NCBI RefSeq assembly: GCF_000500935.1
Contig: NC_022998.1
Location: 186,001-250,000 of the forward strand
Source of the DNA: Spiroplasma apis B31
Lineage (GTDB): Bacteria; Bacillota_I; Bacilli_A; Mycoplasmatales; Mycoplasmataceae
Direction: 5' to 3'
Length of the DNA stretch: 64,000 nucleotides
Shown: positions 49,837 through 55,785 of the stretch, piece by piece
How positions within the stretch are numbered: the first letter of the stretch is position 1
Layout of the letters: each line of letters starts with the position of its first letter
Translations under genes and position numbers: made by a program
Notes under the pieces: generated by a model
Told to the model about the DNA's origin: nothing
Database searches by the model: none
What the model saw: only the letters and a program-made list of their open reading frames with translations

Positions 49837-49878
49837 AAAAAAACCTACATAATCTTTTGATTAAATGTAGGTTTTTTT
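49837..49878 (+). terminator. bidirectional terminator
   Basis: ACCTACAT/ATGTAGGT with inner AATC/GATT and loop TTTT; T7 to the right and A7 to the left, so it can end both the deoxyribosyltransferase and the convergent nrnA transcript. Confidence 0.88.
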
Positions 49879-50809
49879 ATTTTATAAATTTTTCACAAAA
49901 ATTTACAACTTTTTCATAATCAGCTATTGTATCGAGTTTTGCACCTGATGCAGTTTCGTGACCGCCACCACCAAAATGGTTTGCGATTTCTCTAACTGAG
50001 ATCTTGTTAGAGCGAAATTCTACTCTACAATTATCTATATTTTCTACAAAAAATATTCAAATCTTTACGTTTTTAACTTCACCTAGTAAGTTAACTCATA
50101 ATGAAACCAAATGCGGTTCACTCACTTCAAATTTCTTTAGTATATCGCTAGTAATCACAGAGTAAGCTATACCGCTTTTTGTTAAACAAAAGTTTGATAA
50201 TATATATCCTTTTAATTTCATGTAATTAACTGGTAGACTATAAATATTTTCATATACCTTTTTGAAGTTTATTCCTTTTGACAGTAGAATAGAAGCCATA
50301 TCAAATGTTCTTGAACTTACACTTCTATACATAAATCGATCTGTGTCTGTAACAAGCCCGTGAAACAAATAATATGCTGTTGACTCTGAAAATAACAAAG
50401 ATGAACTATCGAATAGTTTTGTTAATAGTTCACAAGTTGCCGGATAGGTATCATCAACTATTTCAAATGTCCCATATTTGTCGACATTCACATGATGATC
50501 AATTTTGAATACCACGCTGGCAGAATGTAGAAAATCGAGGTTTGGAATATCAATTCTATTTAATGTAGCAGTGTCAGTTATTATTACTAGTGCTTTATCA
50601 AAATCTTGCTCTTGTAATTTATCGACTCTACCGATTGTTCGGTACTCATTTGGTAAGTTACCACCAAGAAGAACTTTTTTATCCTTGAAATTATCTTTAA
50701 TAAAGCTGTAGAGAGCCATTTGTGAACCTATTGCATCATAATCTGGAAAAATATGCCTTAATAATATTATTTTATTATGTGATTCAATTTCTTTAATCAG
50801 TGTATCCAA
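49877..50809 (-). CDS. nrnA: NrnA-type DHH phosphoesterase
   Basis: 310 residues. DHH motifs: FPDYDAIGSQ, ITDTATLNRID, and FKIDHHVN (DHH); then the DHHA1 domain with VEFRSNKISVREIA and FGGGGHETASGA. NrnA enzymes degrade nano-RNA and/or hydrolyse phosphoadenosine phosphate. Start codon is TTG with AAGGA nine bases before. It is 17 bases after the p69 gene on the minus strand, so probably the end of that operon. TGA codons at the ORF middle are Trp. Confidence 0.92.
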
Positions 50810-50826: not shown

Positions 50827-53421
50827 TTAAGCCAAGCTACTTCTTTTGTATTTTAAAATATCCTTGGCATTTTTCTTACTTTTTTTATACTCAATTTTAA
50901 AATATTTTGTATTAGTGTCGATTTTTTTATCTAGGTTTTCTTTTAATGTTGTTTTATATTGTTTTATATTCTCTTTGTAATCTAATTTGATGGAGTTCAA
51001 ATAGTCTATTCTATCCTTAGTCAATTTGTATGTGATTAGTCGGTATCTTGAAGATAGCTCTTCATAAGATTCAAAGGTCGTATTTGCTAATCTAGAGAAA
51101 GCTTTAAGATAAGCTTCTTTATGACTAATACCATTTTCCTTGCGAATTTGTTTTTCTAACTCGAAAAGTTTTTTATTTATGTATGAATAAAAAGCTCTTG
51201 ATTCATCATAACTATAAATTGCTTTTTTATTTATTAAATACTCGTTTGCTTTATATTTGATATACATTTTATTTTTTATTTCAATAATTAAATAATCAAT
51301 AAATTTTGGGTTAACTCCTTGATTAAGTTTTGTTCTAAGTATTGTAGCTATGTACTCGATTAAAAGTGTGAATAAAGCAATACCGAATAAAAGTGCCCCA
51401 AACTCGTTGAATAATTGATCATTAAAGTAAGTTGATAACAAATAACCTAAATTACCAGCACCAACTATACCTAAAGATGAAACCTCTTTGAAATTGATGT
51501 CAAATCGGTAAATTATATATGAAATTATGCTACTTGTTGTTTGCGGAATTATTCCATATCTAAATCTCTGCAAACTATTTAAGCCTGTGGCTTGTAACTG
51601 TGATGATATCTTCAAATTAACATCTTCAAAAATTTCTCTATTATATTTTGTAAGCATTCCAGTTGTCCCCATAGCCAAAGCAATAGCACCATTGAATGGA
51701 CCTAGTCCCACTAATGAAATAAAAATAATGGCATATATATATGTTGGAACTGCCCTAATAATTGAAGTTATTATTACAAATACTTTTGCTACATATATAT
51801 TTACAATTGTCTCAGCACTTAATAGCCCAAGAATATAGGCCATTATTACACCAAGAACTGTTCCGACTATTGCAATAGACAAGGTTTCGAATAAAAGATA
51901 TATGACAGAATAGGGTGCTACATCTGTTTTAGAAAATAATGAGTTTCAACTTATATTTAATATACTTTTTATATTAGAGTTAGTTTGCTTGATTGTTGCT
52001 TCTGACTCTAGGTGAAAATTAATTTTTGAGAATGAATATATAAATAAAGCAATGAGAACCGTATAAAGAATCGCTCTTTTAATTCATTTTTTCGGTGCAC
52101 TCTTAAGAGCCTTTTCGGTTGTTAATTCCTTTAAATACTCCTCATGTTTTTTAGCGATTTCAAGTTTAGATTCTTGATATAACTTTGATTTCATTGACTC
52201 TACTTCGATGTTGAATTTGGTCAAGTAAGTTTTATCTAATCTAACATTTTGTTTCAAAATATCGTTATAAACAAATCATTTTTTACTATTTACCTCTGTT
52301 TGTTTTACAGTCTCAAAGTGAAGTACGTCTTTTTTGATATTGTTTTTATGTTGATATTTGAAATACTTGACTTCTTCTTTTTGTTTATTCTTTAGATTTT
52401 TCTTTTCTGCTTTTGACAAATGTGTAGTTTCTTTTATTTTTTTGTATTTTTGAATGATTACTTCTGAAATATAAAACTTTAAGTTTGTCTTTTTCAATCT
52501 CTTCTTAGTATTAGATAACATAGATTCTCGTTCTTTAAAATCCAATATAAAATCTTTATCCTTTAAAATGAAGTTTTTCACAAAATATATTATTATTTCC
52601 AGTATTAATACTACCATTATCAATAAGAACAGTAAGAATCCTGCACGATCTCACTGTTGAAAATCGATATTATTCTGTATTAGCTCACCAATCCCAACGG
52701 AAGACATACCACCAATAATGGCAATATATCTTATGTTTGTTTCTAATGAATAGAATGTAATTGAAAGAATATTATGCGATATTTGAGGTACAATTGCACT
52801 TCTGAATGACCTCATTTTTGAAGCACCCGTTGCTTGCATTGCACTATAAATTTTAAAGTTGACGTGTTCTATTCTCTCTAAAAACAATTTACCTGTTATT
52901 GAAAAGGTGAATATGGCGATTGCAATCGTAACAGACAAAGTAGTTTGACCAAAATAACCTATCAATATAAGCGCAAAAGTAAATGCAGGAATTGTTCTTA
53001 ACAATGCCATGATTGTTTTGCATAAGTTATTTATAAACTTATTATGAATTATGTTAAACGAAGAACACATCGCTACTGGTATTGCAATTGCAACACCTAT
53101 AATTGTTCCTGAGAAAGACATAATTAAAGTAGAACCCAGTGAAGTAAAGGCCTTTCCTAAAAATGTGTCTCCAAAACTATTTGGCGTTGAGAATTTTTTA
53201 AAGTCTCACTTCAACATTTCCTTAATAGTGTCTCCTAATTGGGAAAAACTACTAAAAAATTCTTCTCAACTATTCTTTAAAAACATAAATCCAAATATTG
53301 TTAATATGATTGCAATTATAATCATTAATCATGTAAACAATTTTGTTGGTGGTTGAGCATACCTATTGTTTATTTTAAAAGTTTCCCTCGTTGTTAAACT
53401 ATTTAACTTTCTTTTTAACAT
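50827..53421 (-). CDS. ABC permease with two fused PhnE-like units (p69 type)
   Basis: 864 residues. Two binding-protein-dependent permease domains in one chain: the first at about residues 95-250 with EAA loop QATGASKMRSFRSAIVPQ, the second at about 510-690 with QATGLNSLQRFRYGIIPQ. Between them are a helix (LIMVVLILEIIIYFVKNF), a 140-residue highly charged cytoplasmic linker, and another helix; the last 170 residues are again charged and helical. This matches the p69 subunit of the mycoplasmal p37-p29-p69 transporter. Many TGA codons (52276, 52651 and others) join what would otherwise be four short frames. Starts 2 bases after the ATPase. Confidence 0.9.
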
Positions 53422-53423
53422 AG

Positions 53424-54185
53424 TTATTCTTTACCGTAATTTTTTCCATATATTATTTCCAATTTGTTCTGAGTTAATTCCGAGGGTTTGCCATCAAAAA
53501 CAATTTGTCCATTATTCAAGCCAATTATTCTAGAAGCAAACTTAATTGCTAAGTCAATATGATGTATGTTTATTATAATAGTGATATTGTCCTCCTCATT
53601 TATTTTTTTAAAGTCATTCATTACTTGATTTGCAAGTACTGGGTCTAGTGCGGAAACGGGTTCATCTGCAATTATAAGTTTTGGCTCTTGTGACAGTGTT
53701 CTGGCTAGGGCTATTCTTTGTTGTTGTCCACCACTTAGGTTTTCAACTCTAACATAAGAATAGTCTAGAAGGTTTAATTTCTCTAAATTTCTTAGAGCTA
53801 TTATTTTGTCCTTTTTATTAAAAAAACCCACACAAGATCTAAGGAAGCTCATTTTAGAGACTCTTGCATTTAGAACGTTTCTTATGACTATTTGTTTTTC
53901 GATATTATTATATTCTTGTGACATTAAACCAATTTTTTTTCTAAGTTCCTTTAATTCTTTTCCCTTAATATTGTTGACCTCGTAATTTTTGTCTTCAAAA
54001 TTTATTAAGATTTCTCCCGAGTTTATAGAACTAAATTTATTGATTGTTTTTAAAAGGGTAGTTTTTCCGGCTCCAGATAAGCCAACAACCGCAACAAATT
54101 CTCCTTCTTTGATTTGTAGATTAATATTATTTAAGGCATGTTTACCATTAGGTCACACCTTGTTAACATTGTTAAAATATATCAT
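53424..54185 (-). CDS. ABC ATPase, p29/PhnC type
   Basis: 253 residues. Walker A VGLSGAGKTTLL, Q-loop MSQEYN, signature LSGGQQQRIALAR, Walker B LIIADEP, D-loop SALDP, and H-loop NIHH. Sequence type is PhnC-like. TTGGAGG ribosome site. Separated from the lipoprotein gene by a terminator and joined to the permease by 2 bases. Confidence 0.95.
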
Positions 54186-54245: not shown

Positions 54246-55472
54246 TTATGAAGTTATTTCCTTCAAAAGGTCTTGTATGATGCTTATACTTTTTAAGTTA
54301 TCTGTTATTATTTGATCTTGTTCTTTCTCATATTCGATAGAAGTTTTGCTTCCAACACCAACATAACCTTTATGACTATAAATATCAAATATTTCTGAGT
54401 TTGCTTTATCAGCAACTAACTCTAAGAATGATTCTCTTAAGTTATTAGCCAAAGTTTCATCAACTGTTTCTCTAGAATACATAATTCCATCATTTGGTAT
54501 TCCTCGTGAAGCACCAATTGTTTGTGTGTTCTTATATGCATCCTTCATTTTTGTTGGATCGTTAATATCGTATCTTATATCTGCATAACCTACTGCAAGT
54601 TCAACAGTACCGTTACTTACTTTTTCAGCGGCATCTGTATAACTTGCTTGTTTATATTTGTTTTCATATATATTCTTAAGTTCGTTATTGTCTAAACCAA
54701 GGTGTTCTTTCATTCATAATAATGGATATAAAACAGAAGCACTAGAAGTTGGGCTTCCTCCTAATGATAATTTTTTATCTTCGGAAGCTTTTTTAATCAA
54801 TTTTTTAGCATTTTCTTTGCTTCTGAAATCTTCTTCACCCAAAGTGTCTTTTATAAATTTCTTGTTAGCATAAATGTAAGATCTATAATAACTCACTTTT
54901 TCATCTTTGTTATATAATTTCTCAGTTAATTTTTCTTTATTAAAAGAATCTTCGTCCTTTAATATATTTTCAATTATTTGATCATAATTTTTTGATAGTT
55001 TTGCTAAGTTGTCTCCATTTGATTCTGCTTTTGCCTTTGCATCATCAAATTTCCCGTTTGTTTTGAATTCTTCGAAGTTACTTTCTGCTGCAAGAGACTC
55101 TCTAGAAGAAACTAATAAGATACCAGCTTTTGAGTAGGTACCATCTTCCTTTATATCACCACGATAGCTTTCATAAGTGTTTATTGGTAAAAATGCCAAG
55201 TCTGATTTACCTTTTTTCATTGAATCCCCGGCTGCTTCGTAATTTGTTGCTGCAGTTATTTCAACATTTTTATTAAATGATGAATCTTTTTCTTTTAACT
55301 TATTTTTAAGTTTTTCCTCCAAAGGTTTAACGGTTTTTAAAATATCTGTAGCATTTCTTGATGGAACAAAAGCGATTCTAAGTGTGTTGCTTTTTCCACC
55401 ACAAGATACTATTGTTGATACTGGAGTAGTAAGTATTGAGAAACTTCCTACTAAAAATAATAATTTTTTCAT
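54246..55472 (-). CDS. substrate-binding lipoprotein, p37/PhnD type
   Basis: 408 residues. Lipoprotein signal with Cys at residue 24 (STIVSC). TLRIAFVPSRNATDILKTVKPLEEKLK is the PhnD/p37 start; SDLAFLPINTYE and ELAVGYADIR are typical of the two lobes, and SRGIPNDGIMYSRETVDE near the end. The protein is anchored outside the membrane and delivers substrate to p69. In M. genitalium the homologue was crystallised with a thiamine-like ligand; true substrate here is open. The gene follows a purine-riboswitch-like leader. A TGA at 54711-54713 is Trp. Confidence 0.92.
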
Positions 55473-55564
55473 TTACCCTCCATATGCTTAGACTTATTAT
55501 TTTATCTAAAACATTGTAATTTTGATATTGTAATTAATAGAGACACTTAATTTTAAATTGTCAA
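55473..55564. other. leader between aptamer and p37 start
   Basis: On the minus strand this leader starts with TTGACA (55566-55561) and TATTAAT about 19 bases later, which could be a second promoter. It ends with GGAGGG before the ATG. I found no terminator hairpin in it, so how the aptamer would act is not clear. Confidence 0.45.
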
Positions 55565-55642
55565 TAATAGTTATATTAGTATCGGATTGGTCCGATGTAG
55601 AAACGTCCACCCAATATGTGAACTTATAAGAGTAACTATTAA
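55565..55642 (-). promoter_or_regulatory. purine-riboswitch-like aptamer
   Basis: Read on the minus strand. P1: AATAGTTA with TAACTATT, plus TTA/TAA next to the junction. P2: GTTCAC/GTGGAC with the 7-base loop ATATTGG ending in GG. J2/3: GTTTCTAC, the invariant purine-riboswitch core. P3: ATCGG/CCGAT with a loop containing CC, able to kiss the GG of L2. J3/1: ACTA, with C at the position that selects guanine-like ligands. L3 is shorter than normal and P1 has an internal loop, so it is a variant. A TGATAAT box lies upstream (about 55653-55660). Confidence 0.72.
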
Positions 55643-55785
55643 CTACACTATTATTATCATTGAAAATTTTAAAAAATCTTTTTTATTATTAAGTTTTTTT
55701 TGAATATTATTAACCTTTCAGAAAGTTAAATTTTAACTAATATCGGGCGGAGATAACTTAATTCCTTAATAAAGTATTTTTGATG
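55643..55785. other. divergent control region
   Basis: AT-rich, no gene. Contains the presumed promoter of the p37 operon on the minus strand and an inverted repeat AGTTAAAATTTAACT (about 55723-55737). To its right begins the thrS promoter. Confidence 0.4.

Follow-up and report, generated by a model that had tools for sequence, protein, structure and literature searches.

The p37-type operon

The window, a stretch of 64 000 nucleotides of Spiroplasma apis B31 DNA, carries on its minus strand an operon of four genes, coding for a p37/PhnD-type transporter and an NrnA-like phosphoesterase. A purine riboswitch aptamer lies in its leader, on the minus strand between thrS and the first of these genes. 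The translated part of the locus is as follows.

55476-55481, minus strand: Shine-Dalgarno sequence GGAGGG of the p37/phnD gene, read from the sequence
54246-55472, minus strand: p37/PhnD-type substrate-binding lipoprotein of 408 amino acids (PF12974; AlphaFold model nearest to Mh-p37, Z 25.5)
53424-54185, minus strand: PhnC-type ATPase (p29), above the TIGR02315 cut-off
50827-53421, minus strand: PhnE-type permease (p69) with two PhnE domains in one chain, above the TIGR01097 cut-off over two stretches
49877-50809, minus strand: DHH/DHHA1 NrnA-like phosphoesterase, the fourth gene of the operon (228 bits with the NrnA model, below its equivalog cut-off of 350)

The permease gene encodes a chain of 864 amino acids in which two PhnE domains are fused; its linker and tail are long and charged, and this arrangement is kept in relatives. 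The NrnA-like gene is a conserved partner of the operon, found in the window and in nine of the other loci examined.

The AlphaFold model of the p37-type protein (mean pLDDT 87.5) has the same fold as Mh-p37 (3e78), with Z 25.5 and an rmsd of 4.1 over 324 residues at 13 per cent identity. The next structures by fold are MG289 (Z 24.9), PtxB (20.4) and XAC2383 with ATP bound (18.7). Sequence and profile searches of the PDB with the same protein returned only PtxB, weakly; the identity to Mh-p37 comes from the structure alignment. The name p37, used in the first-pass annotation, is thus reasonable at the level of the fold, Mh-p37 being the nearest solved structure, while its sequence places the protein in PF12974, at the head of a phnD-phnC-phnE-nrnA-like operon.

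Structure and pocket of the aptamer

The elements of the aptamer, all on the minus strand, are listed below.

55651-55557, minus strand: purine riboswitch aptamer, Rfam match (RF00167, 38.3 bits; genus model R1, 69.6 bits)
55624-55628, minus strand: UAUAA, the end of the inner P1 and J1/2 (RF00167 match and sequence)
55605-55623, minus strand: P2-L2 hairpin, pairs 55623-55618 with 55610-55605, seven-base loop AUAUUGG (covariation)
55597-55604, minus strand: J2/3, GUUUCUAC, which holds U51 of the guanine class
55581-55596, minus strand: P3-L3 hairpin, pairs 55596-55591 with 55586-55581, loop CCAA (covariation)
55577-55580, minus strand: J3/1, ACUA, with the guanine-type C74 at 55579

The score of 38.3 bits (E = 5e-5, one-genome search) exceeds the RF00167 gathering cut-off of 37 bits. 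It does so barely because P1 is interrupted: in the window this helix consists of an inner part of three pairs and an outer, switching helix of nine pairs. The interruption had been noted in the first-pass annotation, which proposed a purine three-way junction in this leader and a search with the Rfam purine model; the match and the covarying P2 and P3 (see below) bear the proposal out, and the parts it named (P2 with a seven-base GG loop, J2/3, P3 with CC in its loop, and ACTA in J3/1 with a guanine-type C) are all present. The genus model R1, whose 33 source sequences from the genus included the window aptamer itself, gives it 69.6 bits. Two more purine aptamers of the same genome lie above the RF00167 cut-off; two weak RF00167 matches in this genome, of 20.5 and 16.6 bits, are absent from the search with the genus model. 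Weak R1 matches in the loci L041 and L043 were set aside, as they lie away from the phnD leader.

The pairing of P2 and P3 was compared across the 33 related aptamers. Over the 12 pairs, 98.5 per cent of the cells (12 × 33) are formed, and both sides have changed in 10 of the 12. Shuffled sequences give a mean of 71.8 per cent paired, none of 500 shuffles matches the observed value, and slid controls also stay far below it. Covariation so far above the controls argues that the structure of the aptamer is real.

The letters of the pocket (J1/2 UAUAA, J2/3 GUUUCUAC, J3/1 ACUA; U51, U22 and C74) are those of the guanine class, and from them and from the relatives the expected ligand is guanine or hypoxanthine. 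The first-pass annotation had considered the short L3 to be unlike the standard class and to recall the deoxyguanosine variants of Mesoplasma. However, a four-base L3 of the form CC-N-A is the ordinary one in the genus, occurring in all of its listed aptamers except the purE-type, and the same loop is found in guanine-type and dG-type aptamers alike; we therefore rejected it as a mark of deoxyguanosine specificity.

An aptamer for 2'-deoxyguanosine (or guanosine) like those of Mesoplasma, controlling the uptake of deoxyribonucleosides, would fit the CCAA loop that the window shares with 2'-dG-I aptamers, and also the orthologous phnD genes of G010 (M. florum L1), G009, G011 and G059, which lie behind authentic 2'-dG-I aptamers. 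The pocket speaks against it. The C at position 51/58 of dG-I and dG-II is critical for nucleoside preference (PMC8872408), and the window has U there, together with U22, so that by letter it falls outside 2'-dG-I. Moreover, the 2'-dG-I model RF01510 (cut-off 51 bits), searched against the same genome at E<=0.05, lists only another locus (L001) and not the window site. We consider deoxyguanosine sensing at this locus unlikely.

Predicted transcription start and alternative pairings

Four further strands and a promoter element complete the leader.

55653-55658, minus strand: -10 box GATAAT, one mismatch to TAWAAT, in the same place as TAWAAT in related leaders
55636-55646, minus strand: GUAGUUAAUAG, the 5' strand common to P0 and the outer P1 (sequence and comparison of leaders)
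55633-55641, minus strand: UAAUAGUUA, 5' strand of the outer P1, nine pairs with 55573-55565
55565-55573, minus strand: UAACUAUUA, 3' strand of the outer P1, pairing with UAAUAGUUA
55530-55540, minus strand: CUAUUAAUUAC, 3' strand of P0, pairing with GUAGUUAAUAG and competing with P1

In M. florum, transcription starts 6-7 bases after a TAWAAT -10 box, and a conserved -35 box is absent (PMC7745072). Of the 44 related leaders, 42 have a TAWAAT motif between 38 and 16 bases 5' of J1/2, against a mean of 10.2 and a maximum of 21 after shuffling, and the GATAAT of the window stands at the same distance from J1/2. On the basis of this conserved box and the M. florum spacing, transcription most likely starts near 55646 (±3), which would place the aptamer core and P1 within the mRNA.

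The caveat had been raised that a TTGACA next to the aptamer could be the promoter, leaving the aptamer outside the mRNA; the aptamer might then also be a relic. The motif does lie directly 3' of P1 (55564-55559), but the scan finds no -10 box at 16-18 bases from it, and mollicute promoters lack a conserved -35 box (PMC7745072). In addition, P2, P3 and the pocket letters are maintained under substitution, the TAWAAT of the related leaders is upstream of the aptamer, and the P0 strands flank it. A promoter at TTGACA is, in our judgement, highly improbable.

The sequence UAAUAG within GUAGUUAAUAG has two possible and mutually exclusive partners, either the CUAUUA of P1 or CUAUUAAUUAC further downstream (P0). 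Both P1 and P0 accordingly contain a copy of CUAUUA, not only in the window leader but also in the phnD leader of G030 and the NCS2 leader of the window's own genome. The P0 pairing beats shuffled sequences (p<0.05) in 26 of the 44 leaders of the genus, with p=0.02 for the window leader and a combined Fisher value of 2e-21, which overstates independence since the 44 leaders are related. In several leaders of the genus the P0 strands differ in sequence yet match each other; those of L092, L010, L114 and L090, for example, are quite different and still match across the aptamer. Taken together, sequence and comparison give good support to both of the competing pairings, and the comparison suggests that P0 may be an expression platform common to mollicute purine switches in general. 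The computed energies are -35.4 kcal/mol for the P0 state, which is the minimum, and -29.3 kcal/mol for the P1 state, a gap that ligand binding could bridge.

In the mechanism that we propose, the message would start at about 55646 and include the aptamer. Without ligand, its first 11 bases would pair with CUAUUAAUUAC (55540-55530) to form P0, and the operon would be expressed. Binding of guanine or hypoxanthine would hold P1, in which UAAUAG is taken by CUAUUA; P0 would then be blocked and expression of the operon would drop. This OFF response is drawn by analogy from two switches. In the M. florum dG switch the ligand holds P1, whereas without ligand P0 acts as an antiterminator and the gene is ON (PMC12268651). 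The NCS2 leader of the same genome has a stem GUCUC...GAGAC followed by T's, placed as a terminator would be, adjoining and overlapping the 3' strand of P0. The terminator scan found no intrinsic terminator in the phnD leader of the window, and a stem of the NCS2 type is absent from it. The accessibility of the Shine-Dalgarno sequence shows no useful difference between the P0 and P1 folds. A candidate anti-Shine-Dalgarno sequence, UCUCUAU (55543-55537) facing AUGGAGG, was rejected, because 49 per cent of shuffled linkers give an equal or better energy.

Recurrence of the association and the transported substrate

We surveyed 60 genomes of the family, 20 of which carry p37/phnD, in 23 copies. 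A purine-class aptamer lies directly upstream of 8 of these 23 genes, so the comparison of p37 leaders that the first-pass annotation had called for reveals a recurrent association. Against an assumed background of 0.5 per cent of genes, its probability by chance is about 2e-13, or 2e-10 when near-identical genomes are counted once. Four of the eight aptamers (the window, G030, G034 and G054) have guanine-type letters, and four are true 2'-dG-I aptamers (G009, G010 and G059 with 86-91 bits, G011 with 79.8 bits). One target gene is thus coupled, in related genera, to two ligand classes of one RNA scaffold. In the protein tree the dG-coupled phnD genes occupy one region and the guanine-type ones several places, and these positions indicate repeated gain, loss or change of the coupling.

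Of the three relatives closest to the window in p37 sequence, two (G031 and G037, of the window's clade) have no aptamer, which counts against the explanation proposed here. By eye, their leaders keep the -10 box, the GUARUU start and the matching UAAUUAC partner, as though an excision had removed the aptamer and left the P0 strands on either side. The P0-like strands and the -10 box can be seen at about 1390-1500 of the loci L037 and L038, in the phnD leaders of G037 and G031. In some leaders the switching helix therefore seems to have outlived its aptamer.

Other phnD leaders of the family show further variation. That of G003 (L053, reverse strand) looks by eye like a decayed 2'-dG-I aptamer; the GG of L2 and the CC of L3 are lost, a terminator-like hairpin is kept, and no model matches. 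The leaders L056, L057, L044/L045 and L040/L041/L043 have no known riboswitch and no Rfam match. Some of them carry terminator-like hairpins and conserved-looking upstream sequence, and they possibly hold other regulators of the same transporter.

Of the other two purine aptamers in the window's genome, one stands before a BMP nucleoside-type lipoprotein and one before a Xan_ur_permease. In the family, the domain scan places such aptamers before BMP lipoproteins, NCS2 permeases, nrdF and a nucleoside hydrolase and, by eye, they also precede genes resembling purA, guaA, guaB, purE and hpt. The gene nrnA, the last of the phnDCE operon in the window, stands behind 2'-dG-I-type aptamers in G051 (L069) and G059 (L129). 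In G037 a second phnDCE copy (L165, G037:C1:834500-844600) stands before pyrR, pyrB, a pyrC-like gene, carA and a carB-like gene, so that a p37-type transporter there heads a pyrimidine synthesis operon.

Mollicutes rely on imported nucleotide precursors, and purine-class control of the p37 operon argues for the uptake of a purine base, nucleoside or nucleotide, and against thiamine. The competing assignment, import of thiamine (diphosphate) with only indirect control by purines, follows the proposal made for Mh-p37 and MG289. These two have the solved structures nearest to the window protein (Z 25.5 and 24.9) and have been reported with thiamine-type ligands in work cited in PMC6609329; a minimal-cell model likewise takes the substrate of a p37-like protein to be thiamine diphosphate (PMC6609329). 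The likeness to Mh-p37 amounts to only 13 per cent identity, however, and the operon partners and the pyrR-type paralogue link the transporter to nucleotide metabolism. TPP riboswitches are present in 52 of the 60 family genomes. Judged by coordinates, none of them adjoins a phnD gene, and the gene behind them is ThiT (Thia_YuaJ) in two of the three cases scanned, which argues for thiamine uptake by another route and for nucleotide-related compounds as the cargo of p37 in this family. Thiamine import by this operon is, on this evidence, rather unlikely; the most probable substrate of the transporter is a purine base, nucleoside or nucleotide.

Our main reading, to which we assign a probability of about 0.78, is that a guanine-class riboswitch with P0/P1 exchange, OFF with ligand, heads the p37/phnD-phnC-phnE-nrnA operon, and that the operon encodes a purine importer rather than a thiamine importer. 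The earlier suggestion that a purine aptamer points to nucleobase or nucleoside uptake is supported by the recurrence in 8 of 23 genes, four with 2'-dG-I, and can be extended to nucleotides. Of the earlier reading as a whole, the purine switch and the purine-type uptake stand; the deoxyguanosine variant and the TTGACA promoter do not. More tentatively, the operon might import phosphorylated purines (NMPs or short nucleic-acid fragments) that are processed by NrnA, and be shut by guanine or deoxyguanosine, the pyrR-type paralogues now serving pyrimidines. The thiamine assignment of mollicute p37, including that in minimal-cell models, would then be up for revision. The repeated coupling of guanine and deoxyguanosine switches to the p37 gene amounts in any case to a concrete prediction of substrate that is easy to test.

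Judged by its sequence and its relatives, the element is a real and functional-looking guanine-class riboswitch. The class is known; the target gene is unusual and informative. What is new is the gene link and the detail of the P0/P1 platform, not the aptamer, and the link in M. florum may already stand in Kim et al. 2007. With guanine-I aptamers (RF00167) it shares the three-way junction, the GG and CC loop letters, the J2/3 sequence GUUUCUAC and C74 in J3/1; it differs in the four-base L3 usual in its genus, the split P1, the P0 platform and the p37/phnD target. The 2'-dG-I aptamers of Mesoplasma florum (RF01510) have the CCAA-type L3 and the exchange of strands between P0 and P1 in common with it, as well as the target gene in M. 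florum L1, G009, G011 and G059; they have C at 51/58 and 22/31 where the window has U, and the window leader is without a terminator. Mh-p37, MG289 and the PhnD/PtxB-type proteins resemble the window protein in a near full-length fold (Z 25.5 and 24.9 for Mh-p37 and MG289), in the lipoprotein signal and in the order of binding protein, ATPase and permease; the window system is set apart by identities of 13-15 per cent, by PF12974 with PhnC and PhnE partners, and by the NrnA-like gene.
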